The position numbers and the translations under genes were made by a program. DNA of 35,245 bases from a virus, in IMG/VR virus record IMGVR_UViG_3300010885_023942, positions 1-35,245 of that record. The stretch is one strand, 5' to 3'. How positions within the stretch are numbered: position 1 is the first letter of the stretch; each line of letters opens with the position of its first letter. The notes beneath the pieces were generated by a model. It was not told the origin of the DNA and did no database searches. It saw only the letters and a program-made list of their open reading frames with translations. Shown here piece by piece: positions 3,837 to 19,016 of this stretch.

Positions 3837-4193
3837 TTGGCGCGTGGCGGTAAGCGCGAAGGTGCAGGCCGCAAGGCTGGCAGCCAAACCAAGCGCACAC
3901 AGGAGATTGTTAAGAAGGCGTCTGCCGATGGCATCACTCCTCTCGAGGTGATGCTGACTGCGATGCGGATGGCATGGGACGCTCAAAAGATCGATGAAGC
4001 CGTTGCCGTTGCTCGTGACGCCGCACCCTACATGCACCCGCGCCTCGCCTCTTCAACCGTGAAGATCAATGATAAGCGCAGCGTATCAGACCTCGACACC
4101 GCCGAACTCGTCGCAGCCCTTCACGCGGAAGGCGATGCTGACGGAATTGCTTCGCAGGAAGCGGGCTACCGAAAGCCTGATCCCCTTCACTGA
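3837..4193 (+). CDS. Terminase small subunit-like DNA-packaging protein
   Basis: The TTG at 3837 is chosen: AAAGGA lies about eight bases upstream and the protein then opens with MARGGKREGAGRKAGSQTKR, the typical opening of this small-terminase-like group. The 118-residue product has a basic DNA-binding N-terminus, then a helix-rich core (ADGITPLEVMLTAMRMAWD, then AVAVARDAAPYMHPRL). Its 3' end overlaps the large terminase start by 59 bases in another frame. The role would be recognising phage DNA and loading the large subunit. Assignment rests on sequence character plus position. Confidence 0.7.
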   Translation: MARGGKREGAGRKAGSQTKRTQEIVKKASADGITPLEVMLTAMRMAWDAQKIDEAVAVARDAAPYMHPRLASSTVKINDKRSVSDLDTAELVAALHAEGDADGIASQEAGYRKPDPLH

Positions 4194-5547
4194 GTTCACG
4201 CTGCCCCAATACAAGCCGGCAGCGCATCATGTGCTTATCGCCGAGAAGCTTGAAGCTCTGGAGCGCGGCGAAATCGATCGGCTGATGATCAACATGCCGC
4301 CTCGACACGGCAAATCAGAACTGGCTTCACGGCGTTTTCCCGCGTGGTTCCTCGGCCGCAACCCTGGCAAGAGCGTGATCGCAGCAAGCTACAATTCCGA
4401 CCTCGCGACAGATTTTGGACGGCAGGTGCGCAACATCGTTGCCGCGCCAGAATATGGGCGTCTGTTCGACGTCGCATTGTCTGACGATAGCCGCGCGGCC
4501 AACCGGTGGAACACGGCGGACGGCGGCACCTACGTCGCGGCAGGCGTGGGCACGGCCATCACCGGCCGTGGCGCGGACATTCTATTGATTGACGATCCGT
4601 TGAAAGACCGCGAGGAAGCCGACAGCGAAGTGCAGCGCCAGAAGATATGGGACTGGTACACATCGACGGCTTACACGCGGTTGGCCCCTGGTGGACGCGT
4701 CATCGTCATCCAGACGCGGTGGCATGAAGACGACCTGACCGGCAAGTTGCTGGAGGAGCAAGGCCGAGGCGGCGATAAGTGGGACATCCTTGAGCTGCCC
4801 GCGATCGGTCGCGATGGTCACGCGCTCTGGCCGGACTTCTACCCGCTGTCGACATTGGAGCGCATTAGATCGGTGCTGCCGACGCGAGATTGGGCAGCAC
4901 TCTATCAGCAGCGGCCCGCGCCGGACGAGGGCGCATACTACAAGCGCGATTGGTTCCGCTACTATGACGACAAGCCCCGCCATCTGCGCATCTATGGAAC
5001 GTCAGACTACGCAGTCACAGAAGGCGACGGGGATTACACGGTGCATCTGGTGGCCGGCGTCGATCCCGACGACAATATTTACATACTCGACGTGTGGCGC
5101 GCTCAGTCCGCATCCGACGTGTGGATTTCCGAGCTGCTCAATCTCATCAGGACGCACAAGCCGCTGATGTGGATCGAGGAGCAAGGGCAGATCATCAAGT
5201 CGATCGGGCCGTTTCTCGATAAGCGCATGCGTGAGGACCGCGTCTATTGCCGCCGTGAGCAGGTGGCGTCGGCCGCGGACAAGCCGACGCGGTCGCGCTC
5301 GATCCAGGCCCGCACGGCCATGGGCAAGGTCTATCTGCCCCGCAAGGCCGCATGGCTCGACGCATTCACGTCAGAGCTACTGGTGTTCCCCGCCGGCAAA
5401 CACGACGACCAAGTCGACGCCTTGGGACTGATCGGCCGCATGCTGGACGAAATGGTTTCCGCATCCGTGCCCAAGTTTGAGCCGCGTCGCGCGACGTCCG
5501 ACTATCGCAGCACACGAGAGGAGGGCGAATCGTGGAGAACGGCTTGA
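4135..5547 (+). CDS. terL: Terminase large subunit
   Basis: This is the packaging motor: an ATPase that pumps DNA through the portal, joined to a nuclease that cuts the concatemer. With the start at 4135 (470 residues), a Walker A-type loop lies at PPRHGKSE (55-62), Walker B at LLIDDP (150-155) and a coupling motif at IQTRWHEDD (192-200). The nuclease domain shows GTSDYAV (first Asp at 291) and HDDQVDALG (about 423-431), the acidic residues of the RNase H-like fold. Length is normal for the family. GGAAGG lies just before this ATG; an in-frame ATG at 4069 would overlap the small subunit further and is less likely. Confidence 0.95.
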   Translation: MLTELLRRKRATESLIPFTEFTLPQYKPAAHHVLIAEKLEALERGEIDRLMINMPPRHGKSELASRRFPAWFLGRNPGKSVIAASYNSDLATDFGRQVRNIVAAPEYGRLFDVALSDDSRAANRWNTADGGTYVAAGVGTAITGRGADILLIDDPLKDREEADSEVQRQKIWDWYTSTAYTRLAPGGRVIVIQTRWHEDDLTGKLLEEQGRGGDKWDILELPAIGRDGHALWPDFYPLSTLERIRSVLPTRDWAALYQQRPAPDEGAYYKRDWFRYYDDKPRHLRIYGTSDYAVTEGDGDYTVHLVAGVDPDDNIYILDVWRAQSASDVWISELLNLIRTHKPLMWIEEQGQIIKSIGPFLDKRMREDRVYCRREQVASAADKPTRSRSIQARTAMGKVYLPRKAAWLDAFTSELLVFPAGKHDDQVDALGLIGRMLDEMVSASVPKFEPRRATSDYRSTREEGESWRTA

Positions 5548-7628
5548 CGCTTCCCCAGCCCCCTCAGACCACCGCTGCACCCGGGCCCGCAAAGCCTAAG
5601 TACGACCTCGGGGCCAAGCGCCGGAAGTTCCGAGCGTTCGAGAGCAACAAAGACCGCGAGCTTAAGGAAAGCCAGGAGCACCGCCGCTACTACCACGCGA
5701 AGCAGTGGACGGAAGAGCAGGTTGCTACGCTCAAGAAGCGGAAACAGCCGGTCATCACCGACAACCGCGTTGCGCGAAAGATAGACTTTCTCGTCGGTGT
5801 CGAGCAGCGTATGCGGCGCGATCCGAAGGCGTACCCGCGCACGCCGAAGCACGACCAGGATGCCGATGCGGCGACGGCGGCCGTTCGGTTCGTCTGCGAC
5901 GTCAACCGTTGGGAAAAATCCGCGTCCGACGTCGCCCATGACGGCATGGTGTCCAACTGCGGCGTCGTCTGGATCGGTGTCGAGGCGCGCGAGGTCAAGA
6001 TCCGCCAAGTTGACGTGTCGCGGTTCTTCTACGATCCGCGCTCGATCAAGGCCGACTTCTCCGACGCGCGCTTCATGGGCGTGCATCTGTGGATGGACAT
6101 CGAGGAAGCAATCGAGCAGTGGCCCGGCAAAGAAGCCGAGCTGCGGGCAATGATCGATAACGATACCGGCGAGACGTCACTGTTGCGCGCCGATGTCGAT
6201 CAAAACGAGCAATGGGCCGACTTTGAGCATGAGCGCGTGCGTGTGCTGGAGTTCTGGGAGCGGACCCGCGACGGCTGGACTTACTGCTTTTTCTCGGGAG
6301 ACATCGACCTGGACAGCGGCCCCAGCCCTTACGTGGATGAGAAGGGGCGCCCGGATACGCCTTATGTCGGCTGGTCCTCTTACGTCGACGAGAAGGGTGA
6401 CAGGTACGGCATCATCCGCAACCTGAAATCGATGCAGGACGAGATCAACCACCGCCGGTCCAAATTCCTGCACATGATCAACGTCCGCCAGATCCACGTC
6501 CGAACCGGCGTGGTCGAGGACGTCGACAAGCTCCGCCAGCAACTCACGCGCCCCGATGGCGTGATCGAGCACAACGGCGAATGGGGCAAAGACATCGGCA
6601 TGATTGACCAGTCGGACCAGGTCAAAGGTCAGGCCGAGTTGCTGGTGGAAGCGCAGACCGCGCTCGAAAACCTCGGTCCCAATCCGGGCTTGATCGGAAG
6701 AGGCGGGGGCGTTGCCGACCAGTCCGGCCGCGCGATCCTGGCACAGCGCGACAGCGGGATGACCGAGCTGAGCCCCGTGTTCGAACGCATGCGAGATTGG
6801 AAGCTCCGGTGCTATCGCGCCATGTGGGCACGCATTCGTCAAGCCTGGACGGGCGAACGCTGGATCAGGGTCACGGACGACAAGCGGTCCATGCAGTACG
6901 TCGGCGTCAACGCCATCAAGACGGATCCGGAAACGGGCCAGCTCGTCCCTCAGAATTTTGTGGCCGAGATCGACGTCGACATCATCATGGACGAAGGCCC
7001 CGACACGGTCGTGATGAAAGAGGAGCTGCTTCAGACGATGTCGCAGCTCGGCGAGGCCGCAGCCGGCCCCATGGGCAAGATCATGATCGAGCTGAGCAAC
7101 GTTCCCGACAAGGAAGCTCTGCTCAAGATGCTCGATGATGCCTCCGCCCCGCCACCTCAAATGGTCGCGATGCAGGAGCGCATGGGGCAGCTCGAAGCCA
7201 TGCTCAAGGCGGCTCAGATCGACGAGAAGATCGCGGCCATCGAGAACAAGCGCGCCGACACCATCGCCAAGCTATCCGGCGCCATGACGCCGCAACAGCA
7301 ACAGACCGACGAGTTCGGCCGTCCGATGGGTCCGGCTCCGGCCGATCCCGGTGCAGGCCTGATGAACGGCCTCAACGCTCTGTCGATGTTCCCCTTGCAG
7401 TACGGCCAGCCGACCATCGAGCAGCAGACCGAGATGATGGGGCAACAGCAGCCGCCACCGCCGCCCGGCATGGATGGCCAGCAGCCACCGCAAGGCGCCC
7501 CACCGCCCGGTGGCATGCAGCAAGATCCGACGCAACCGCCCATGGACGAGACGATGATGTCTCCAGACGGCGGAATGCCCATCGACGCATCGGCTTTCGA
7601 GCCGAGCGCGCCCCAGCTAGGATCATGA
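5532..7628 (+). CDS. Portal protein, P22-like
   Basis: The product (698 residues) begins at a GTG with GAGG upstream and overlaps the terminase by 16 bases. It has the P22-type portal character: an N-terminal region with YYHAKQWTEEQVATLKKRKQ, then DNRVARKIDFLVGVEQRMR, a clip/wing region with SRFFYDPRS, and a central LGPNPGLIGRGGGVADQSGR followed by an AILAQRDSGMTEL helix. The last 170 residues form a Gln/Pro/Met-rich tail that includes PPPPPG runs; in P22 the portal C-terminus forms a barrel into the capsid, but this tail looks disordered instead. It forms the DNA entry ring at one capsid vertex. Confidence 0.92.
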   Translation: MENGLTLPQPPQTTAAPGPAKPKYDLGAKRRKFRAFESNKDRELKESQEHRRYYHAKQWTEEQVATLKKRKQPVITDNRVARKIDFLVGVEQRMRRDPKAYPRTPKHDQDADAATAAVRFVCDVNRWEKSASDVAHDGMVSNCGVVWIGVEAREVKIRQVDVSRFFYDPRSIKADFSDARFMGVHLWMDIEEAIEQWPGKEAELRAMIDNDTGETSLLRADVDQNEQWADFEHERVRVLEFWERTRDGWTYCFFSGDIDLDSGPSPYVDEKGRPDTPYVGWSSYVDEKGDRYGIIRNLKSMQDEINHRRSKFLHMINVRQIHVRTGVVEDVDKLRQQLTRPDGVIEHNGEWGKDIGMIDQSDQVKGQAELLVEAQTALENLGPNPGLIGRGGGVADQSGRAILAQRDSGMTELSPVFERMRDWKLRCYRAMWARIRQAWTGERWIRVTDDKRSMQYVGVNAIKTDPETGQLVPQNFVAEIDVDIIMDEGPDTVVMKEELLQTMSQLGEAAAGPMGKIMIELSNVPDKEALLKMLDDASAPPPQMVAMQERMGQLEAMLKAAQIDEKIAAIENKRADTIAKLSGAMTPQQQQTDEFGRPMGPAPADPGAGLMNGLNALSMFPLQYGQPTIEQQTEMMGQQQPPPPPGMDGQQPPQGAPPPGGMQQDPTQPPMDETMMSPDGGMPIDASAFEPSAPQLGS

Positions 7629-7889: not shown

Positions 7890-8021
7890 GTAGCGTGACG
7901 TGCGTGGACCCGCCGGCCTAAGCGGCGTTTCGGCCCGTGAGACCGTCATTCTCACGACACCGGCTCATCAGACCGCATCTGATGCTTTCGTGACCAGCTA
8001 CGTCAAAGCGGATTGACCCAC
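7890..8021 (+). other. Short intergenic region with hairpin
   Basis: There is no gene here. It contains a perfect seven-base hairpin, CGTGAGA (7936-7942) with TCTCACG (7950-7956), loop of seven. No T-run follows, so an RNA-processing or mRNA-stability role before the strongly expressed scaffold and capsid genes is more likely than termination. Confidence 0.35.
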
Positions 8022-8852
8022 ATGGCAGACACCGTGACCGAAGACCTGCAACTCGACGACGTTTACGCCTCGGATACGGCACCGACCGACGCTCAACCGG
8101 CAACGGATGGGCAGACGCCGGTGCGCGACGAGGCCGGACGGTTCGCCGCGAAGCAGGAAGCAGCACCCGAGGCCAAGGCGCCAACGCCGCAGCCGGAAGT
8201 GCAGCCCGAGCCCGAGGTCGCAACGCGTCATGTGCCACTCAAAGAGCTGCAATCCGAGCGCACCAAGCGTCAGGAAGAGGCTCGCTTGCGCGCCGAGGCC
8301 GAGGCGCGCGCATCTGTCTATGAAAAACAGGTGCAGGCCCTCTTGTCTCAGTCGCGTCCACCGGCCGTACAGCCGGCACCCATCCAGCCGCCCGATCCCT
8401 ACACCGATCCCGAGGGCTTTACGCAGTTCCACGTGAACCGCGTGCAAGCCAGGATGGAAGATCGGTTGCTCCACATCTCGGAGTCGAATGCCCGCCGTGC
8501 CCACGGTGACGCGATCGTCAACGAGGCTCTGGAGATGGCTCGAAATGCTGGCGATCCGTCCTACTTCAACCGGTTCCCCGATCCGTGGGGCGCTCTGGTG
8601 GAGTGGGGCAAGCGCCAGAAGTCTTTGGCCAAGATCGGGCCTGATACTGACGCCTACGAGAAGCAGGTCGAGGAGCGGGCAACCGCGAAAATCCTCGCCG
8701 ATCTCAAGGCCGGAAAGATCAAGCTGGACGGCACCACTGTGCAGCCGACGCGGTTCCCCGGAACGCTTGCCGATCAGACGTCGGCCGGCGGATCGCAGAC
8801 CGCACATCTCTCCGATGAGGCGATCATGGCCGGCGCTTACCGCCGAGCCTAG
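8022..8852 (+). CDS. Capsid scaffolding-like protein
   Basis: The 276-residue product sits directly upstream of the major capsid gene, the usual place for a scaffold. Its composition fits: a disordered N-terminus rich in Pro, Glu and Ala, a VPLKELQSERTKRQEEARLR coiled coil at about residues 70-90, a helical middle, and a basic segment near the C-terminus (DLKAGKIKLDGTT). Scaffolds of this type template procapsid assembly and bind capsid protein through a helical C-terminus. ATG 8022 is preferred over an in-frame TTG at 8013; neither has a strong ribosome site. Confidence 0.7.
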   Translation: MADTVTEDLQLDDVYASDTAPTDAQPATDGQTPVRDEAGRFAAKQEAAPEAKAPTPQPEVQPEPEVATRHVPLKELQSERTKRQEEARLRAEAEARASVYEKQVQALLSQSRPPAVQPAPIQPPDPYTDPEGFTQFHVNRVQARMEDRLLHISESNARRAHGDAIVNEALEMARNAGDPSYFNRFPDPWGALVEWGKRQKSLAKIGPDTDAYEKQVEERATAKILADLKAGKIKLDGTTVQPTRFPGTLADQTSAGGSQTAHLSDEAIMAGAYRRA

Positions 8853-8904: not shown

Positions 8905-10020
8905 ATGGCAAACACCGCGACGCTTTCCGGCTTGGATCTGACCAAGTGGCGGAAAGACTTCATCAACGAATACGTGCGCGACAGCGGTTTTAAACCGTAT
9001 ATGGGCACGTCGGAAATGGACATCATCCACGTCGTCAACGACCTGCAGACGGACGGCGTCACGATCCGCATCCCGCTGCTGGCTCGTCTTAAGGGCGGTG
9101 GCGTCGAAGGCGACACCCTCCTGTCTGGTCAGGAAGAGATGCTTGACCAGTACTATCAGGATCTCACTTGGAAGTTCCGCCGGCACGCCGTCGCCGCGAC
9201 CAAGAACCAGAAGAAGCGCTCGGCCGTCGATTTCATGGCGCAGGCTCGCCCGCGCCTCAAGGAGTGGTCGTCGGAGCTGATCAAGTTCCTGGTCATCGAC
9301 GCCTTCCACAAGATGAGCGACGGAACGAACTTCGCCGACGCCAGCGCCGGCACCCGTAACACGTGGGTCGTGAACAACTCCGACCGCGTGTTGTTCGGCA
9401 ATGCGATCGCCAACTATTCGGCGACGCATCTGACCGCGCTCGGCAACGTCGACAGCACCAACGACAAGCTGACGGCTGCCAATGGCTCGCTCGCGAAGTT
9501 CATCGCGCGGCAGGCCGACCCTCATATTCGTCCGTTTAAGACGGGTGCCCAGGGCCGCGAATTTTATGTCATGTTCTGCCATCCGCTCTGCTTCCGCGAC
9601 CTAAAAGCGGATACGACGATGGTCAGCGCTAACCGTGACGCCCGCGCTCGTGAGGGTGGCGGCATGGACAGCAACCCGATCTTTCAGGACGGCGACCTGA
9701 TCTACGACGGCATCATCTTCCGCGAGATCCCCGAGTTCTACACGAACCGCACGGGCACCGGCCGCAACACCAACACGCATCTTGCGGGCGTCGGCGCTTC
9801 TTCCATTGACGTGGGTGTCAACTTCCTGTGCGGAACGCAGGCGCTCGGCTACGTCAACAAGCAGGCCGCCATACCGACCAAGAAGAATGAGGACGACTAC
9901 GGCTTCGTTGACGGCGTCGGCATCGAGTTCGCAATGGGCCTCGACAAGCTGCGTTGGAACAACGGCTCCGGGACTAACAAGGATCTCGGCATCGTCACCT
10001 GCTACTTCTCTGCTGCGTGA
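8905..10020 (+). CDS. Major capsid protein, N4-gp56 family
   Basis: This 371-residue protein is the head shell subunit. The opening (TLSGLDLTKWRKDFINEYVR, then YMGTSEMDIIHVVNDLQTDG), the DTLLSGQEEMLDQYYQDLTW segment with FRRHAVAATKNQKKR, and a conserved middle (GREFYVMFCHPLCFRDLK) and end (GFVDGVGIEFAMGLDKLRW) match the N4-gp56-type capsid group with the HK97 fold. Length is normal. No maturation-protease gene is seen nearby, consistent with scaffold-only maturation as in P22 and N4-like phages. Confidence 0.9.
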   Translation: MANTATLSGLDLTKWRKDFINEYVRDSGFKPYMGTSEMDIIHVVNDLQTDGVTIRIPLLARLKGGGVEGDTLLSGQEEMLDQYYQDLTWKFRRHAVAATKNQKKRSAVDFMAQARPRLKEWSSELIKFLVIDAFHKMSDGTNFADASAGTRNTWVVNNSDRVLFGNAIANYSATHLTALGNVDSTNDKLTAANGSLAKFIARQADPHIRPFKTGAQGREFYVMFCHPLCFRDLKADTTMVSANRDARAREGGGMDSNPIFQDGDLIYDGIIFREIPEFYTNRTGTGRNTNTHLAGVGASSIDVGVNFLCGTQALGYVNKQAAIPTKKNEDDYGFVDGVGIEFAMGLDKLRWNNGSGTNKDLGIVTCYFSAA

Positions 10021-10842: not shown

Positions 10843-11190
10843 ATGACGGCGCGCACGATCGTCGATCTGACGGCGGCTGTCATGCTGGACTTGGCCCTGA
10901 TTAACGCCAACGAAACCCCGTCGGCGACCGACCACGCCTTCATTGCTGCCAGCTACGCCGAGGCACTGGAGGAACTGCGCGACGATGGGTTGTGCTGGTG
11001 GGATGCTAACGCCATCCCTCTAGCGGTCTTTCCAGCGGTCGTCAGCTTTATGTCCATATCGGTATCTGAAGCTTTCGGAAAACCGCGCCAAGTGCCGGTA
11101 GATGTAGAGCTTGAGGCCGCGCGCAAGCGCATTCGTCGTCGGATTGCAAAGCCGACGACGGGTGAGCAAACCTCGTTTTCGGACTACTGA
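10843..11190 (+). CDS. Head-tail connector (head completion) candidate
   Basis: The 115-residue helical product has a pattern like gp4-type or gp6-type head completion proteins: a first helix (TIVDLTAAVMLDLALINANE), a helix-turn (AFIAASYAEALEELRDDGLC), a hydrophobic helix, and a polar tail ending in TSFSDY. Such proteins form the ring between the portal and the tail. Its stop overlaps the ATG of the gp10-like gene (TGATG), which in P22-like phages follows the adaptor. Assignment is mostly positional. Confidence 0.55.
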   Translation: MTARTIVDLTAAVMLDLALINANETPSATDHAFIAASYAEALEELRDDGLCWWDANAIPLAVFPAVVSFMSISVSEAFGKPRQVPVDVELEAARKRIRRRIAKPTTGEQTSFSDY

Positions 11191-12590
11191 TGGCCATTCT
11201 CCCGATCACGCTCGGCACCCAATCCAATCCAGGACGGTTCTCGACCGCTGGCTCTGCGCGTCTGACGAACCTCATGATTGAGCAGTCCGGTCAAGAGGGG
11301 AAGGCATTAACGGTGCTCTATCCGGTGCCTGGGCTGGCGAGTTTTTCGACGCTGACCGGGGGCGGCGGTGTCCGCGCCATGCTGGCAACCGACAACTGGC
11401 TGTATGTCGTCGCCGGGCGGCTGCTGTTTCGGGTCGATGCAAGCGGAGCATCAACTCTGATCGGCGGTATTCCGACCGATGGGCTGGTGACTATGGGCCG
11501 CAACCGGGCCAACCCGACACAGATAGGCATTAGCTCGGACGGCCTGTTTTGGGTTGTAGTTGATGCCACGCTGACACCAAACGCCGACACCGATCTTCCG
11601 CCGTCATCGTCGCTTGCTGTGCTGGATGGCTATGGCATTCTGCCAGGCTATGGATCGGTCTTCCACATCTCGGACGCGGACGATTTTACCGCATTTGATC
11701 CGCTCGACTTTGCTTCAGCCGAAAGCAGCCCAGACGCCACAATGCGCGTCGCAGTCCGTGAATCAGAAGTCGTGTTCTTCGGCACGGAATCAACGGAGTG
11801 GTGGCAGAACAGCGGGGGGACATTCCCGTTCAGTCGGGTGCAAACGGCCCGCATCGGGTGCCTGTCTGCCGCTTCTGTTGCCACCGTTGACCGTACTCTG
11901 GCATGGGTCGCGCAGGATGGGACTGTGCGTCTCATGGAAGGCTACAGCGGCAAGGTCATCAGCAACCACGCCGTTGACAGGTTCGTGGCTGACGAGACGA
12001 CCAAATCGGAACTGACGGCAACTTCATGGGCGCAGGACGGCCACACGTTCTATTGCCTGTCTGGCACCAATGAAACGTGGGTCTACGACATCGCAACCGG
12101 ACTTTGGCACAACCGTGAAAGCTATGGATATAGCCGCTGGCGCTGCAGCTACGTTGTCCAGTTCGCCGGCAAGACGATCGCGGGCGATGCTTCCACCGGC
12201 ATCCTTTATCAGATGCATCGCGACTACGCCGACGAAGCCGGCGAGCCGCTGATCTGCGAGAGCATCACACCGCCCAATCACGCCGCACCCGAGCGTCTGC
12301 AGGTCAATGCGCTGCACCTTGACGTGATTACCGGCCAAGGAATCGTTCCCGGCGACGACAGCACGACAGAGCCGCAAATCATGGTGCAGGGATCACGGGA
12401 TGGCGGCGCCACGTTCGGGACTGAACGCTGGATCTCAATGGGGCACCGTGGCGAGCGGGTCAAACGCATCGTTCTGCGCCGCTGGGGCGTCTACGGCGTT
12501 CAGGGCGTGACATGGCGCGTGCGGTCGTCGGCTGCGGTCGCGCGTGGGTTTCTGAGTGCGCACATGGATGCACAGAAGCTCAGGGCATGA
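11190..12590 (+). CDS. P22 gp10-like packaged-DNA stabilisation protein (tail hub)
   Basis: The 466-residue product has the gp10-like beta-propeller plan: an opening on obtaining a protein name list (ARLTNLMIEQ) and PVPGL, repeated short strands, and FGTESTEWWQNSGGTFPFSR followed by GCLSAASVATVDRTLAWVAQ, a section that closely parallels the P22 family. In P22 this protein plugs below the portal after packaging and gives the base on which the needle and spikes sit. Length is normal for the family (about 470). The start is coupled by TGATG overlap. Confidence 0.85.
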   Translation: MAILPITLGTQSNPGRFSTAGSARLTNLMIEQSGQEGKALTVLYPVPGLASFSTLTGGGGVRAMLATDNWLYVVAGRLLFRVDASGASTLIGGIPTDGLVTMGRNRANPTQIGISSDGLFWVVVDATLTPNADTDLPPSSSLAVLDGYGILPGYGSVFHISDADDFTAFDPLDFASAESSPDATMRVAVRESEVVFFGTESTEWWQNSGGTFPFSRVQTARIGCLSAASVATVDRTLAWVAQDGTVRLMEGYSGKVISNHAVDRFVADETTKSELTATSWAQDGHTFYCLSGTNETWVYDIATGLWHNRESYGYSRWRCSYVVQFAGKTIAGDASTGILYQMHRDYADEAGEPLICESITPPNHAAPERLQVNALHLDVITGQGIVPGDDSTTEPQIMVQGSRDGGATFGTERWISMGHRGERVKRIVLRRWGVYGVQGVTWRVRSSAAVARGFLSAHMDAQKLRA

Positions 12591-12725: not shown

Positions 12726-13469
12726 ATGGGTTTTTTCGGCGATCTGTTTGGCGGTTCATCCGGCAAGAAAGCGGCCAACGCGGGCGCCGAGGCTGCCAGT
12801 GCCTACACCAACAGCGGGTATAACTCCTATCGAGACAATGCTACGAAGGGCTACGGCCAGTCCGATAGCATTCTGTCCGGCTATGAGCAGCCGGGAAAAC
12901 AGGCCTACAGCCAGTATGCCGACAGCATCGGCGCCAACGGGGCGCAGGGCTACCAGAACGCGCTGAGCAACTTCAATGCTGACCCGTTCCGGCAGGGTCA
13001 GGACGACGCCACCGCGCGAGCTGTCCGCGATACGTACCGCCGCTACAACGGCCAGGGTATGGGGAACAGCGGCACGGCTGGTGCTGCGGTTGGACGGGTT
13101 GGAAGCGACATCTACGGGAGCCAAGTGGCTGACTACCGCAACCGGCTGATGGGCCTCGGCCAGCAAGGCGCGCAATTCGGCCAACAGCGGGCACAGAACG
13201 CCATCGGCCAAGGCGAAGCCATCGGCGGGAGCTACATCGGCCAGAACAACCAGCTCGCCGGCATTGAACAGCAGCGCCAACAGAACATTTATCAGGCGCA
13301 ACAGGGCGGGATGAACAACATACTGAAGGGGCTTGGCTTCGTTGGTAGCGCGGCCATGTCCGGGTTTGCGCCGGGGGCTGGGGGTCAGACTACGTTCGGC
13401 AACATGCGTAATGCCCTGTTCCGCCCATCCGGTCAGAGCGGATGGAACACAACGACGACGTGGGGTTGA
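12726..13469 (+). CDS. Internal (ejection) protein, Gly/Gln/Asn-rich, P22 gp7-like position
   Basis: The 247-residue product opens with a hydrophobic, glycine-containing stretch (MGFFGDLFGGSSGKKAANAG) typical of phage DNA-injection proteins. It then has long Gln/Ala/Gly-rich helical segments (GQQGAQFGQQRAQNAIGQGE and further). A hydrophobic segment with Gly and Ala lies near the C-terminus, followed by NMRNALFRPS. Such proteins are packed in the capsid and ejected ahead of the DNA to form a channel. It is the first of five genes sharing the R-N-A-L motif. Confidence 0.65.
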   Translation: MGFFGDLFGGSSGKKAANAGAEAASAYTNSGYNSYRDNATKGYGQSDSILSGYEQPGKQAYSQYADSIGANGAQGYQNALSNFNADPFRQGQDDATARAVRDTYRRYNGQGMGNSGTAGAAVGRVGSDIYGSQVADYRNRLMGLGQQGAQFGQQRAQNAIGQGEAIGGSYIGQNNQLAGIEQQRQQNIYQAQQGGMNNILKGLGFVGSAAMSGFAPGAGGQTTFGNMRNALFRPSGQSGWNTTTTWG

Positions 13470-13472
13470 TCC

Positions 13473-15077
13473 ATGGCCATGCAGCGCAACGCCCTGATGC
13501 CGATGGAACTCGGCCCGGCCGCCGACGTCGGCAACTTCACCAACCCTCTGATGCAGGGCCTGCAGACCTATCGACAGGGCATGCAATCCCAGTTCGAGGG
13601 GGACCGCGCGCTGGCGTCGGAGCGCATGAACCAGCGCAAGCTCGGGATGCAGATCGACGAGCATGAGTACACCAAGCGCAAGCGGACGATAGAGGATGTC
13701 GGCAATATCGCCACGGCCGCTGATGCAGAGCAAGACCCTGCGAAGCGGGCACAGATTTACCAAGTCGCGCTTTCGCATCACCCCGACTTCAACAGCCTTC
13801 CTCCCATGTATCGTGATCCGGCGATTGGACCTCGACTCCTGATGGCCGAGGCTGGAAAGGCGAAGAACAAGCTAGACGACGATTATAAGCAATCGCAGAT
13901 CGGCCTCAACAAAGCGCATACGAACTTTTACAACAGCCGCGCCACTGCTCTGACGGCGCCGCAGCCTGCGGCACCTCAAGCGGCACCTGTCGCCGATCCG
14001 TTGCAGGGTGCTGGCCTCGACGATGAAGGCAATATCGTCACCAGTGGCCAGCGTCCGGCATCACCTTACGCAGAGCCGACTGGAGAGACGTGGCAGATTG
14101 CACCGCAGCAGGGCAAGACGCCACAGAGAATGAACCTCGGCGGCCCGCGCGACGACATTGACCGTTCAATGCGTCTCGACGAAGGCCGCCCGCAGGGGCC
14201 TGCGGGCGTTCGGATGGCGCAGGCTGCACCGGCCCCATGGCGTCCAGAGCCGTCACAGACCGATCAAGCCGCCGCGCGCATGTTCGGTCCTACGGGCGTC
14301 ACCTCTCCAGAAGTTCCTGGGATCGTTACTGATGCCGGCCGAAATAGAAGGGTCGATGTTCCGGCTACGCGCGAAGCGCAAGGCCAGCGTGCCTATGACA
14401 AGGCAACGCCAGAACAACAACAGCGGTTGATGCGTCTCCGCCAGGATCAGCAACTGTGGAGCGCGGCGCTCGGTACTCCGCGTGCTGGCTATTACTATGG
14501 TCCAGATGGCCGGGAATTGCCCAAGACGGACCGAAACTACAAGGGCGACAAGGAGACCCAAGCCCAAGTTTTGATGAATATGCAGAAGATCGATCAGGCA
14601 ACGAAAAAATTGCTTGAGCCTGGGATTGCTGGAGCCGTCACCCCGGGTGGGGTCGGGGATTACTTCACACGTTCTATCGCTGGGCAGGCCAACGTCGGCG
14701 AGACAGGTCAATCTTTTGCCGACTTGAAGCAGGCAGCCTTAGGCATTGCTTACGCGCTGTCTGGCAAGCAAGTCGCCGTCGCCGAGATGAAAAATTTTAT
14801 TGATTCTTACGGACCGCAGCCGTGGGATACCGAGTGGCGCATCAAGGCAAAATCTGCGCGGATGAAAGAGTTCTACGGGGCTCTTTTGTCGGCCGTGCGC
14901 GGCGGCGAGGACTACGACAAGGCGTTCTCGAGGGCCATGGCAACGATGGGCGTCAAAAACCCGGACGGAACGTCTGTTGGTGGTCCGGCTGGGTCCGATG
15001 CAGGCAAACCGCCAGCTCCCGACCTTTCGAAAGTCCCCACCGATGAATTGTTGCGTCGTCTGCAAGGCGGGCGCTGA
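13473..15077 (+). CDS. Internal/ejection protein candidate
   Basis: The 534-residue product begins with QRNALMPMELGPAADVG, the motif shared across this cluster. The N-terminal 150 residues form a charged helical domain that resembles structural internal proteins (YTKRKRTIEDVGNIATAADA). A Pro/Gln/Ala-rich linker follows, with a helical C-terminal domain (TKKLLEPGIAGAVTPGGVGD, then LKQAALGIAYALSGKQVAVA). It is placed as the second ejection-type gene, and its stop overlaps the next ATG (TGATG). No catalytic motif was seen. Confidence 0.6.
   Translation: MAMQRNALMPMELGPAADVGNFTNPLMQGLQTYRQGMQSQFEGDRALASERMNQRKLGMQIDEHEYTKRKRTIEDVGNIATAADAEQDPAKRAQIYQVALSHHPDFNSLPPMYRDPAIGPRLLMAEAGKAKNKLDDDYKQSQIGLNKAHTNFYNSRATALTAPQPAAPQAAPVADPLQGAGLDDEGNIVTSGQRPASPYAEPTGETWQIAPQQGKTPQRMNLGGPRDDIDRSMRLDEGRPQGPAGVRMAQAAPAPWRPEPSQTDQAAARMFGPTGVTSPEVPGIVTDAGRNRRVDVPATREAQGQRAYDKATPEQQQRLMRLRQDQQLWSAALGTPRAGYYYGPDGRELPKTDRNYKGDKETQAQVLMNMQKIDQATKKLLEPGIAGAVTPGGVGDYFTRSIAGQANVGETGQSFADLKQAALGIAYALSGKQVAVAEMKNFIDSYGPQPWDTEWRIKAKSARMKEFYGALLSAVRGGEDYDKAFSRAMATMGVKNPDGTSVGGPAGSDAGKPPAPDLSKVPTDELLRRLQGGR
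13481..13502 (+). repeat. Copy 1 of a perfect 22-base direct repeat coding QRNALMP
   Basis: Identical to 18590-18611, about 5.1 kb downstream, and lies at the start of the 534-residue gene. Both copies are in the coding frame. Other RNAL sites in the cluster use different synonymous codons, so the peptide rather than the DNA appears to be kept. Confidence 0.85.
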
Positions 15078-17857
15078 TGGCCGACCAATCCACCATAGAC
15101 GTGTACGCCGAATTGCACCGCCGCAACGCGGTGCCGGCCGAGCATAAGCCGGTCGTGGACGAGCTGGTGCGGCGTGGCGTGATCGGCGGGCAAAAGAAGG
15201 TCTATGGACCCGGCGACAAGCTCGACGACGGGACAGTGCTCGACGACCAAGGGCTTGAGCGTGGGACGGTCCTGCCGATTGCGCGCGACCCGAACACGAA
15301 CAGCCTGAGCTTGGCTGTTCCCGGCTTTATCTATCAGCCGTTCAGCGCATTCAAGAAATCGGCCGAGACGGGCACCATCAGCCCCGGCGACGCGCTCGGG
15401 ATTGCCGGCATGGGCATCACCGGCACCAATTTCATGCCTAAGCCGGTGCCCTACACGCCGGCCGTATCCGCTCGCAGGCAGAATGCGCTCTCCCGCGCGT
15501 CGGAGTTCGAGGACGCTGGTGTTCCGGCTTTTGCGCCGGCTCTGGTCGACAACATGCCGGGCGCCGAGACGGTGATGGGCGGACTGTTCGGTGGTCCGCT
15601 GCGTAACCGGGCTCAGTTGTCCATTCAAGGCGTAGAGCGCGGGGTGCAGGACACCCTAGCGCCCACCGGGGCCGCGCGTTCGGTCAACGAGATCGGAAAC
15701 GAGGTGAAGGGCGATTTGCGCCGGTCCATCGTCGACCGCTCGCGCACGGCTGATGAAATCGACAATATGACCAGGTTCGATCTGCAAGACATTTCAGGTG
15801 TCGGCCCAGGACCGAACGCGCCACGCAATGCCCCGCCGGTGCCGCGCGTTCAGCCGGAACCTTGGAACCCGCAGCGGCGTGCGATTACCGAGGCCGACGT
15901 CGATGCGGCGATGCAGAGCCCGCCACGCCTGCCGACGCCGGTTCCTCGGCAGGTGATGCTCGAAGACGTGATCTTGCCGCCGCAGATGGAACGCGCTGTG
16001 CAGGACGCCGGCGCAAGCCGTGCCGCGGCCGAACAGTTTTTGACGGGCAACGCCGAGAAGCATCAATCGCTTCAGGCGCGTATGCAGCAGCTCAGTGAGG
16101 CAGAAAAAAACCTTCCTGAAGTGCCGCGCCCTCGCCCTGTCGGCAAGCAATTCACGTCACCGCAGGAAGCAGCCCAGCAGGCAGCGGCCGAACAGGCCTA
16201 CAACGCCACGCTACCGCAGCGCCAAGCACTCGCCCGCACGCGCGCACAGCTTGAACAGGAGTATGCCCCGTTCGGCAAAGCCGAGCGAGCCTTGGCCGAT
16301 GCGGAGAACGCCCAACAGCAGGCTAATGCCTACCGGCATGCAAACCTCACCCGCGCACAGCAGGCCGAGGCTGAACGGGTTTCGAGCGAGGCACAGGATA
16401 ACTATCAACTTCGCATGTCGAATGCGCGGGATGAGGCTCGCCAGCGTGCCCAGCGTGTCGCCGATGCCGAGCATTTGGCCAACGTCAACGACCCGACGCG
16501 CCGGATTGCCTTTGAAGCGCAAGCCCGCAATCGCGCTCGCTCCGAGACCGATCGGGCACAGTATGCCGCTGATCAGACCTATCGTGCGGATCTGGAAAGG
16601 CGACAGGCGCAGGCCATCCCGCAGCGCGTCGGCGGCAACAGCCGTGAGAGCTATAACACCGAGTTCGATGCTGGATATTCAGCAGCGCGCGCGAATACGC
16701 CGCCGATGCAGATGAACCCGCTTGGCCGCCCAAGCGATGCCGGAATGACTGAGACTGCGCGTCTCTTGGATTCGGTCGCAACGGATTATCGCAAGCAAGG
16801 TTTGCTGCCAGGATATAGATCCGGCGCCGTCTTTGATGAAACGGGTCGCGTTAGCGCAGATATTCTACGGATCGTCGATAGTCTGGCCGGCCCTGGTGTA
16901 GCCGAACGCATTCGCGCAATCTCTGATATGCGACCGCGCGGAGCAACACAGCTCGGCATCGAAGGTCTCGACCAGATCCGCACAGCGATAGGCCAAGCCC
17001 TGTCTGATGCCAAACAGAAGCCGATCGGTGGCCTGACGCAAGGCGAGGGTGCATCACAGCGCGCGCGCGCGGCGTTCCTCTCTCGGTTGTACGATGCATT
17101 GGGGCGTGACGTCGATCAAGCCGTCGCCCGCGTTCCGGGTGGCGAGCTCGCAGCCGCACAGCGCACCGTGTTGCGGGACAGCTATCGCGACTTCATGACC
17201 GATATTCGCGCGCCGCTGTCGAAGGTGTTTGGTGAAAAGACCACACCAGAGCAGGCCGTCAAGCTGCTGACCGACGCCGCGCGCGGCGGGGATCGCGGCA
17301 ACATCAACCTCCTCGACGCATATTTCCGTGTTGCACGTGAAAAGGGAGACGTTGTCAGGGCTTCCGGCGCCATTCTGACAGAGATGGCACAGGGCGGGCT
17401 CGAAGGCTTCCTCGCGTCCTACCGTGGCATGCCGCCGGAAGTGCGCGCGATGATGAGCCAAGGCGAGATGCGGCCGGTCTTCGCGCGCTTGGATCAGTTG
17501 GCGCGCGTCGGCGGCTATCTTGAAAGATACGTGCCGCTGGCTCGGCCTGATCAGTCGGTGGCCGATGTCGCTCGGCGTGTCGCCAGCGGTAACAATGCGC
17601 TCATGGGGCTGATCACCTACCTTCATGCGCCTTCGGCCATCGTCTACGCCGTTGGACAGGCTGGCGCCGCTCGTACCATGGCCAGCCCGGCCTTCCAGCG
17701 CTGGCTCACCCGTGTGCCGGTGACGCGGACGCCAGCGGATCGCCGAGCCCACATCAATGCCCTCGTGCGCATTCTCGGGGCTCAGTCCGGGATAAGCGAG
17801 GACGCCGCTAAAGAGGTCAAGCGCATGCTGAACGAAGATAACAGGGGGAAGACATGA
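15077..17857 (+). CDS. Large internal/ejection protein with long coiled coil
   Basis: At 926 residues this is the largest gene of the ejection cluster. An N-terminal domain (to about 250) has RRNAVP near residue 16 and RRQNAL near residue 134. A very long Ala/Gln/Arg/Glu-rich coiled coil runs from about 320 to 530. A C-terminal domain of about 350 residues is helical (VDSLAGPGVAERIRAISDMR and later DYFR-like helices), with a semi-hydrophobic segment (ALMGLITYLHAPSAIVYAVG) near the end. The size, position and coiled coil fit a P22 gp16-like protein that crosses the envelope during DNA entry. Family identity is inferred. Confidence 0.65.
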   Translation: MADQSTIDVYAELHRRNAVPAEHKPVVDELVRRGVIGGQKKVYGPGDKLDDGTVLDDQGLERGTVLPIARDPNTNSLSLAVPGFIYQPFSAFKKSAETGTISPGDALGIAGMGITGTNFMPKPVPYTPAVSARRQNALSRASEFEDAGVPAFAPALVDNMPGAETVMGGLFGGPLRNRAQLSIQGVERGVQDTLAPTGAARSVNEIGNEVKGDLRRSIVDRSRTADEIDNMTRFDLQDISGVGPGPNAPRNAPPVPRVQPEPWNPQRRAITEADVDAAMQSPPRLPTPVPRQVMLEDVILPPQMERAVQDAGASRAAAEQFLTGNAEKHQSLQARMQQLSEAEKNLPEVPRPRPVGKQFTSPQEAAQQAAAEQAYNATLPQRQALARTRAQLEQEYAPFGKAERALADAENAQQQANAYRHANLTRAQQAEAERVSSEAQDNYQLRMSNARDEARQRAQRVADAEHLANVNDPTRRIAFEAQARNRARSETDRAQYAADQTYRADLERRQAQAIPQRVGGNSRESYNTEFDAGYSAARANTPPMQMNPLGRPSDAGMTETARLLDSVATDYRKQGLLPGYRSGAVFDETGRVSADILRIVDSLAGPGVAERIRAISDMRPRGATQLGIEGLDQIRTAIGQALSDAKQKPIGGLTQGEGASQRARAAFLSRLYDALGRDVDQAVARVPGGELAAAQRTVLRDSYRDFMTDIRAPLSKVFGEKTTPEQAVKLLTDAARGGDRGNINLLDAYFRVAREKGDVVRASGAILTEMAQGGLEGFLASYRGMPPEVRAMMSQGEMRPVFARLDQLARVGGYLERYVPLARPDQSVADVARRVASGNNALMGLITYLHAPSAIVYAVGQAGAARTMASPAFQRWLTRVPVTRTPADRRAHINALVRILGAQSGISEDAAKEVKRMLNEDNRGKT

Positions 17858-18378
17858 GAATGCCCTTTCGCAACGCGCTTGTCCCCAAGATGTACGAGGA
17901 CGATGACCCGTCCGAGATCCCGCCGGAGGGCGCGACGGACGAGATGGGTCCGCCCGACCAGTATCAGCCGCAAGACTTGATGGACAATCGCAATGCGCTG
18001 GCGCCGCGCATGCAACGGGTCGGGTTCGGCGGTGATGCCAGAGGGCAGCGTGCTCTGCGCTCGAACAATACGTTCGAAATCGAGCAATATCTTCGAGAGT
18101 TGGCGCAGTCGCCGCAAGGCGCGACCGATGCCGGTATCGCTGACATTCGAATGATGGCTCGCCAGTATGGCGTGCGCACGCCATATGACCGCGCATTCAA
18201 CGATCCTCCGACCAGTCAGAACCCGATGATGGGACCGAGCGGAAAGCCGCGTCCTCTGATGCGAGACCCGGACAGTTGGGACATCGGATCTGACGGTCGT
18301 GACCGTTTCGGGCAGGATCGATACCAATACGAGCACGGATACGACAATCTGTATATGAACCCACCGCAGCGTCGCTGA
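17854..18378 (+). CDS. Hypothetical virion-cluster protein with two RNAL motifs
   Basis: Starts at an ATGA overlap. The 174-residue product carries RNALVP at its N-terminus and RNALAP near residue 46. It is rich in Asp, Pro, Met and Arg and probably disordered (DDDPSEIPPEGATDEMGPPD), with one helical segment (EIEQYLRELAQSPQGATDAG) and a Tyr-rich C-terminus. No family is recognised. Its stop overlaps the next ATG. The repeated motif suggests it is a partner, or an internal cargo protein, of the ejection set. Confidence 0.55.
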   Translation: MRMPFRNALVPKMYEDDDPSEIPPEGATDEMGPPDQYQPQDLMDNRNALAPRMQRVGFGGDARGQRALRSNNTFEIEQYLRELAQSPQGATDAGIADIRMMARQYGVRTPYDRAFNDPPTSQNPMMGPSGKPRPLMRDPDSWDIGSDGRDRFGQDRYQYEHGYDNLYMNPPQRR

Positions 18379-19016
18379 TGTCGCGCAACGCTCTGGCGCA
18401 ACGACGCGCGCCGACGCCTTACGACCAACAGCTTGCGTTGTTCGGAGGCGAGAAAGCACAGGGCGCCGACCTCGCCGCGTTGGAGCGTGCCAAGGCGCTG
18501 CAGAAGAACGGCCAAGACCCGTGGTCAGAGGGATGGTTTCAGGACCCGACAGGCTGGTCGTTCGAGATCGACGATAGCGGCTATGCGGAGCAGCGCAACG
18601 CCCTGATGCCGGTTCAGGGGCGGGCGATCACGCGCCCTTACGGCCAGACCTACACTCACCCAGAGCTTGAGCAGCGCTACCCCGATTTCATGGCGCGCTC
18701 GCGCGTGACCGTCGATCCCGATCTTGCCCGGCGTGAGGATGTCGACGGGATGGTGACGGAAGGCAATCGGGTGTGGATCGACCCTCTGCTCTCGCCCGAC
18801 AACCGTCTCTCTACGGGTCTCCACGAGACGCAGCACGCCCTCGACAACTACGAGGGACGCCGCCGGTTCAATGCGCCGGATTACCTCAAGGACCCGCGCG
18901 AGCAGCGCGCGTTCAACGTCGAATATCGCCGCGGTCTGACGCCAGAGCAGCGGCGCCAGATGTCACCGGTGCAGACGCTTCCGGCGGCGCTGAAATCCTA
19001 TGCGGACAAGGACTAG
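18378..19016 (+). CDS. Putative zinc metallopeptidase (HExxH) of the ejection cluster
   Basis: The 212-residue product contains LHETQHALDNYEG with the zincin signature H149-E150-x-x-H153. A downstream KDPREQRAFNVEYR provides a likely third ligand, Glu175, 22 residues on. The segment GWFQDPTGWSFEIDDSGY (about 52-69) and the HPELEQRYPD stretch before the active site match a domain order seen in peptidase modules of large polyvalent phage and plasmid proteins. RNAL motifs lie at residues 3-6 and 73-76. It is short and stands alone here, rather than being part of a giant protein. Possible roles are processing of internal proteins or attack on host envelope proteins during entry; neither is shown. 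Confidence 0.65.
   Translation: MSRNALAQRRAPTPYDQQLALFGGEKAQGADLAALERAKALQKNGQDPWSEGWFQDPTGWSFEIDDSGYAEQRNALMPVQGRAITRPYGQTYTHPELEQRYPDFMARSRVTVDPDLARREDVDGMVTEGNRVWIDPLLSPDNRLSTGLHETQHALDNYEGRRRFNAPDYLKDPREQRAFNVEYRRGLTPEQRRQMSPVQTLPAALKSYADKD
18590..18611 (+). repeat. Copy 2 of the 22-base direct repeat coding QRNALMP
   Basis: Identical to 13481-13502 and in frame within the metallopeptidase gene, at residues 72-78. It sits between the GWFQDPTGW segment and the peptidase domain, so it marks a domain boundary rather than a protein end. Confidence 0.85.

Follow-up and report, generated by a model that had tools for sequence, protein, structure and literature searches.

It is poorly understood how podoviruses select the proteins that are packed in the head and injected into the host. 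In phage T4, a short peptide, the capsid targeting sequence (CTS), is present on the internal proteins IPI-III and Alt, which the phage packages and delivers to its host, according to excerpts of one account (PMC9026906). In P22, as set out in the relevant sections of another (PMC8402733), the ejection proteins are recruited into procapsids, scaffold is needed, and the authors' model holds the N-terminal parts of gp7 and gp20 responsible for recruitment. Excerpts of the P22 ejection-protein literature revealed no recruitment peptide common to the ejection set. Here we describe a short peptide, RNAL, that recurs among the ejection-type and effector genes of a virus with a P22-type head cluster, IMG/VR record IMGVR_UViG_3300010885_023942 (positions 1 to 35,245; this whole 35.2-kb stretch is referred to as the window). 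Judging from sequence, RNAL belongs to a wider motif, N-[R/L/A/P]-L-M, that is spelled in several ways, and we favor, with modest confidence, the reading that this motif is a docking tag through which virion cargo is loaded or ejected, presumably bound by a partner and drifting in spelling with the lineage.

Between the head closure gene Hc3 and the tail fibre, the window contains five genes encoding proteins of 247, 534, 926, 174, and 212 amino acids (aa), and RNAL occurs six times in four of the five products. All copies lie on the plus strand, exactly where the first, sequence-only reading had placed them: at residue 228 of the 247-aa gp7-like protein, in its C-terminal part (13407-13418), at residue 5 of the 534-aa gp20-like protein (13485-13496), at residues 6 (17869-17880, RNALVP) and 46 (17989-18000, RNALAP) of the 174-aa protein, and at residues 3 (18384-18395) and 73 (18594-18605) of the 212-aa effector, the latter copy separating the LPD23 domain from the part with the HExxH motif. 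Only 0.068 copies are expected in the five gene products (2093 aa together), within-protein shuffles brought any 4-mer to a count of six in just 2 of 1000 trials, and none of the remaining complete six-frame open reading frames (ORFs) of at least 60 aa in the window (216 in total) contains RNAL. The six copies use five synonymous DNA spellings, the single identical pair being an exact 22-nt repeat that encodes QRNALMP in the gp20-like gene (13481-13502, plus strand) and again between the LPD23 and HExxH parts of the effector (18590-18611, plus strand); both the repeat and the codon differences had been correctly read from the letters. A proline follows within three residues in five of the six copies, the exception being that at 18384. 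Looser sites that had escaped the sequence-only reading are an NRLM in the gp7-like protein, common to its homologues (13140-13151), an NPLM in the gp20-like protein (13542-13553), and an NALM at residue 840 of the 926-aa gp16-like protein (17594-17605), all on the plus strand. The two looser forms proposed for the 926-aa protein, RRNAVP (residue 15) and RRQNAL (residue 133), are indeed present; however, RRNAVP was not counted as a tag, because its N-terminus looks family-conserved by eye (VNRNSVPPEH in L052). Another IMG/VR contig, IMGVR_UViG_3300009163_000200 (L007), is identical to the window letter for letter over 13407-13500 and 17860-18620; it is probably the same virus assembled again and is therefore not independent.

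Relatives were collected from IMG/VR by searches with the coat protein, effectors, and the gp20-like protein, and MW202785 came from a phage collection; some further searches for relatives returned no additional phages, part of them only the near-copy of the window. The main count covers 15 phages, with 66 ORFs of the corresponding ejection and effector modules and 150 other ORFs. N.LM or RNAL is present in 37 of the 66 module ORFs versus 2 of the 150 others. Counted by protein family, a stricter alternative to clustering by flanks, the ratio is 12 of 23 versus 2 of 65, and by combinations of family and region it is 20 versus 2. RNAL itself occurs 14 times in modules, where 0.86 copies are expected (8 versus 0.79 without the window), and is absent from the 150 non-module ORFs (0.76 expected). 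N.LM occurs 54 times in modules against 2.75 expected, and elsewhere twice against 2.61. When 34 module proteins from 8 phages were used to rank every X.YZ pattern with at least six occurrences, with homologous sites unmerged, N.LM came first (41 versus 1.59 expected, log10 p 41.9; 6.2 for the next pattern), with R, L, A, or P commonest in second position. Merging sites by flank similarity left 45 module clusters versus 2 elsewhere, an upper figure, since some evident homologues stayed apart (MADNLLMPEG of L006 and L029). Tags are found at N-termini, at C-termini, and between domains; of the 62 module sites, 15 are no more than 12 aa from a protein end, against 6.7% expected. The 15-phage counts left out ORFs open at a contig end (e.g., the gp16-like ORF of L008 and the gp20-like ORF of L043), and the module sets of L029, L008, and L024 kept some spurious overlapping ORFs. 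Most of the phages in the X.YZ ranking and in the end-matching test described below were already known to carry the motif when they were chosen; L024 (PDLM) entered the latter test but not the ranking. Three others, L123, L125, and MW202785, came in afterwards through homology rather than through the motif, L123 and L125 by way of their gp20-like proteins once the idea had formed.

Spellings differ between phages, namely RNAL, NLLM, NPLM, NRLL, and PDLM, and tend to match within a phage. L006, the closest relative by capsid (coat 87% identical to that of the window), lacks RNAL: its effector starts with MADNLLM, a C-terminal NLLMQGY is present, and in its block NLLM and GAGR are the tied top 4-mers, with four copies each in three proteins. 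The exact letters of RNAL are thus lost in this close relative, but NLLM sits at comparable places, and the loss is therefore no refutation. NLLM recurs in L029 and L125, where it lies near the C-terminus of a 442-aa effector. In L024, MPDLM opens three proteins, two mutually related LPD23 effectors and the gp20-like protein, and RDLMS is found at the C-termini of both effectors. L048 uses NRLL. L123 has RNAL, with MADRNALF at the N-terminus of its 432-aa effector; its gp20-like N-terminus matches that of the window at 102 of 111 nt, a recent exchange that does not count as independent evidence for conservation. L041 uses both RNAL and NPLM, its effector bearing MDRNALM and a C-terminal NPLMRGY. 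The consensus R-N-A-L-x-P of the sequence-only reading holds as the spelling of this one phage, and the wider motif is better written N-[RLAP]-L-M. The suggestion that the peptide is under selection, as a cargo tag or assembly contact, gains support from enrichment in relatives and from tags on effectors with no relation to the ejection proteins.

Spelling that goes with the phage is seen most clearly in homologous ART C-termini, which end in NLLMQGY in L006, RDLMSN in L024, and NPLMRGY in L041. Another explanation for the motif is a structural or inherited origin, in which N-x-L-M would be a helix start in helical proteins, spread by homology and short DNA duplications. The NPLM of the gp20-like protein does start the first predicted helix, the NRLM of the gp7-like protein is family-conserved, and the 22-nt repeat is exact. 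However, homologous C-termini with different tags, the enrichment that persists in the by-family count, and the five DNA spellings of the six RNAL copies argue against such an origin, as does the specificity of the pattern: Q.LM, the next of the X.LM patterns, reaches 5 versus 2.6 expected, and the others are not comparably raised. Moreover, the proline of RNALMP, RNALVP, and RNALAP appears ill-suited to a helix. A helix start may account for some gp7 and gp20 sites but is a poor explanation of RNALxP and of the terminal tags, and as a general account we consider it decidedly unlikely.

Matching within phages was also assessed from protein ends. In nine phages, effector ends match the ejection-protein ends of their own phage better than those of others (mean score 19.3 versus 16.9, permutation p 0.012). 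In a motif-blind comparison, the two ends of one effector are alike above chance, with 5 versus 0.79 expected at a score of at least 19 among 63 effectors (permutation p of the mean 0.013); these 63 derive from 87 effector ORFs, of which 73 were complete at both ends and were then de-duplicated. The five effectors are those of L053 (EEDP), L108 (RLAP), L070 and L036 (both GLL), and L006 (NLLM).

The distribution of spellings offers a hint as to the partner. Among five phages, with L041 set aside, the four same-spelling pairs are 77-96% identical in Hc3 and 64-86% in the gp7-like protein, whereas different-spelling pairs reach at most 63% and 54%, respectively. The window and L123, which share a spelling, are 96% identical in Hc3 and 77% in the gp7-like protein; the window and L006, with different spellings, are 81% identical in the portal and 87% in the coat, and L029 and L123, also different, are 67% identical in the gp20-like and 49% in the gp16-like protein. 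From this pattern, spelling appears in these few phages to go more closely with the block from Hc3 to gp7 than with coat, portal, or scaffold, and in L041 only loosely; on the same few phages, the partner may lie in this block. As candidate receptors, the major capsid protein and the portal are disfavored by their high identity in L006 despite its other spelling (the coat and portal of the window find no match in the 27-kb L123 record, which is perhaps a fragment). The gp16-like protein is disfavored by its identity between L029 and L123, and the scaffold by the lack of a match to the scaffold-like protein of the window in the same-spelling L123. The tail fibre of the window is 89% identical to that of L123 but otherwise fails to separate the spellings.

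The docking-tag reading can be set out as follows. A short linear tag with the core N-[R/L/A/P]-L-M, spelled mainly RNAL(M)xP in the window, would mark proteins carried inside the virion, among them the gp7-like and gp20-like proteins, and effectors encoded alongside would have gained it at free ends or in linkers between domains. In the procapsid or the ejection apparatus, a common partner would bind the tag, so that bound effectors would be loaded with, and exit with, the ejection proteins; spellings would differ between lineages because the partner changes with the lineage. A need for such a tag is plausible, given the recruitment of ejection proteins into procapsids described for P22 in the sections cited (PMC8402733). 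It is also conceivable that the tag acts during or after ejection rather than in assembly, by binding a channel or a host envelope factor and ordering the passage of effectors. One tag on both ejection proteins and effectors would fit this, and lineage-dependent spelling is what co-evolving partners would produce; yet spelling follows Hc3 and the gp7-like protein, which are phage proteins. The two timings would look alike in sequence. We regard this alternative as unlikely.

A further role to be weighed is that of a proteolytic processing site, cut in assembly or after injection by the HExxH protein, as the sequence-only reading had ventured, or by another phage protease. Zincin domains have been proposed to process polyvalent proteins, in the part of the source concerned (PMC5512222), motifs such as RFSK recur within some giant polyvalent proteins encoded elsewhere, and one tag in the window lies between LPD23 and the HExxH part. 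Nevertheless, L041, L123, and L125 have the tag in their modules but no HExxH in any of the module proteins listed, and a cut at the 15 of 62 sites near an end would free little. On these two grounds, cleavage by the HExxH protein is improbable as a general role, and we rate processing by any protease as quite unlikely.

Several observations weigh against the docking-tag reading. Widening the motif to [ND]xLM yields 15 sites outside modules versus 7.55 expected, and specificity is lost. N.LM is also raised beyond the modules: in 11 other INPHARED phages with related Hc3 it occurs 8 times versus 1.67 expected, 3 of the 8 sites being gp7-like C-termini (two of the long proteins there were truncated by the limits of the region taken), and in 56 other LPD23/ART effectors N.LM occurs 18 times versus 5.34 and RNAL 6 times versus 1.59. 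The INPHARED excess is mild, and strong use is therefore confined, among the phages examined, to the group of the window; the excess in other effectors is likewise milder than in 7 module effectors (11 versus 0.23). Several gp7 and gp20 sites are family-conserved and may be structural. In the end-matching test, the own phage ranks first in only 2 of 9 cases, partly because several phages share a spelling, and the within-phage tests reach only p ~0.01. Little emerged when protein ends were scanned for exact 4-mers without bias: p≤0.01 was reached at 4 of 118 loci, with about 1.2 expected, and the window itself gave p 0.025. In L006, a count of at least four arises in 38 of 500 shuffles, so that NLLM is not significant there by itself, and L041, with its mixed spelling, has an Hc3 only 41-42% like those of other RNAL phages. 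The missing L123 match weakens a role for the scaffold. Finally, the same sections describe the assembly of each P22 ejection protein as independent of the other two (PMC8402733); this implies a separate site for each of them and argues against a role of gp7 as the common receptor.

The genomic setting is that of a P22-type head cluster, recognized by profile searches and comprising terminase (4069-5547), P22 portal (5532-7628), a scaffold-like gene assigned by position (8013-8852), coat (8905-10020), and Hc3 (11190-12590, plus strand; phrog_578, E 3.9e-91). The ejection block follows Hc3, with all five genes on the plus strand. The gp7-like gene (12726-13469) encodes the family-conserved NRLM at residue 139 and RNALFRP near the C-terminus, and is followed by the gp20-like gene with its N-terminal tag (13473-15077), the gp16-like gene for a long internal protein (15077-17857), assigned to third place in the ejection set solely from its position, the gene for the doubly tagged 174-aa protein of unassigned function (17854-18378), and that for the 212-aa polyvalent-type effector (18378-19016). 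The effector has LPD23 at residues 22-68 (PF18838, E 7.7e-9), a polyvalent-associated domain that marks it as containing parts of a phage polyvalent effector, and HExxH (HETQH) at residue 149. The 247-, 534-, and 174-aa proteins have no match in PHROG, Pfam, or NCBIfam, the 926-aa protein has none in PHROG or Pfam and only two in NCBIfam, both below cut-off, and the 534-aa protein finds no tblastn match in the phage collection at E≤1e-5. One of 6 members of the gp7-like family matches phrog_598 ('DNA ejection') and 2 of 10 of the gp20-like family match phrog_2534 ('released from the phage upon host infection'); since these matches come from relatives and not from the window proteins, we infer, rather than observe, that the window proteins of the ejection slot travel in the virion. 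The gene at the equivalent place bears the annotation DNA transfer protein in both VSN-002 and DSL-LC05, followed in VSN-002 by one annotated as P22-type translocase. Two structure predictions are poor (mean predicted local distance difference test score, pLDDT, 52.5 and 56.9), so that the low confidence at tags, such as pLDDT <50 over residues 1-23 of the gp20-like AlphaFold2 (AF2) model, gives little ground for calling these stretches disordered. The second model had no match in BFVD at E≤0.001 when searched with Foldseek.

Other short motifs were seen in these protein families. Some gp7-like proteins of other phages have N-Y-L-M or N-W-L-M near the C-terminus (L179:11897-12583, L183:11541-12314, and L178:11913-12740), a position at which the motif may have originated. 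Long gp16-like proteins often have a phage-specific hexapeptide twice within the first 75 residues, such as DPWAEF, GPWEVF/GPWQVF, NPFAQF, KPWEEF, or YSDELF, among other loci at L026:6759-9131, L125:11299-13548, L014:16683-18299, L024:17401-19692, L177:13969-15924, L167:12074-14152, and L174:4539-15902. The doublets have shuffle p≤0.015 in 13 of 19 proteins tested, at least one of the 13 being of low complexity and some of the 19 having been picked once the repeat had been spotted by eye, and the 926-aa protein of the window falls outside the 13; the hexapeptide may be a second docking tag. Giant polyvalent ORFs of about 10 kb (L058, L051, and L047) repeat RFSK six times, PMFA four times, and FSMI three times, possibly as processing or docking sites.

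In its broader form, the docking-tag reading would make the motif one instance of an exchangeable peptide address code, in which a lineage-specific tag of 4-6 residues at an end or linker directs virion loading and injection, the code drifts with the ejection machinery, and effectors are recruited by gain of the tag rather than by structural fusion. We put this forward tentatively, as a possibility short of our own conviction. Other phages with polyvalent effectors may use other codes (GLL, NRLAP). Effector ends with GLL were seen in L066, L070, L053, and L036; in L066 (409-1602 and 1617-2141) the effector ends in RRGLLD and the adjoining protein in RPKGLLDQ, and over the effectors tested GLL occurs 88 times versus 47 expected. 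If the docking-tag reading is true, injected effectors would become predictable from genomes through a tag readable in sequence, P22-type ejection proteins would have a testable recruitment signal, and laboratory phages would gain a usable loading tag for cargo.

Among the papers retrieved by searches of open-licence PMC, no title or abstract opening described such a shared tag. Several known systems resemble it in part. PLxRFG (NCBIfam NF032893, tail-700) is named after a short motif and occurs on a polyvalent protein, and L174:4539-15902 carries the NCBI name PLxRFG domain-containing protein. NF032893 is, however, a 681-position domain with one matched stretch and no repeated tag in H66 gp60, and it has no match at E≤1 in the five module proteins of the window; it was thus set aside as an analogue. 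Polyvalent proteins are closer, as several of the effectors have their domains (LPD23, zincin, and ART-PolyVal), but here these domains sit on short, separate, tagged proteins, whereas H66 gp60 is one giant chain of 3787 aa. The likeness to P22 gp7, gp20, and gp16 lies in the position after Hc3, the PHROG names of relatives, and the annotations of VSN-002 and DSL-LC05, and the adjacent effectors bearing the same peptide are a new element. With the T4 CTS, the tag shares the principle of a short peptide common to different internal proteins, internal status being a presumption here. The CTS, an N-terminal propeptide, is 10-19 residues long and is removed by cleavage, whereas the motif described here spans about 4-6 residues, is N-terminal in many proteins but also C-terminal or in linkers, and belongs to P22-type podoviruses with lineage-specific spellings. 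Without being established as a member of that class, the tag resembles the T4 CTS in logic, which makes the CTS its nearest known principle.

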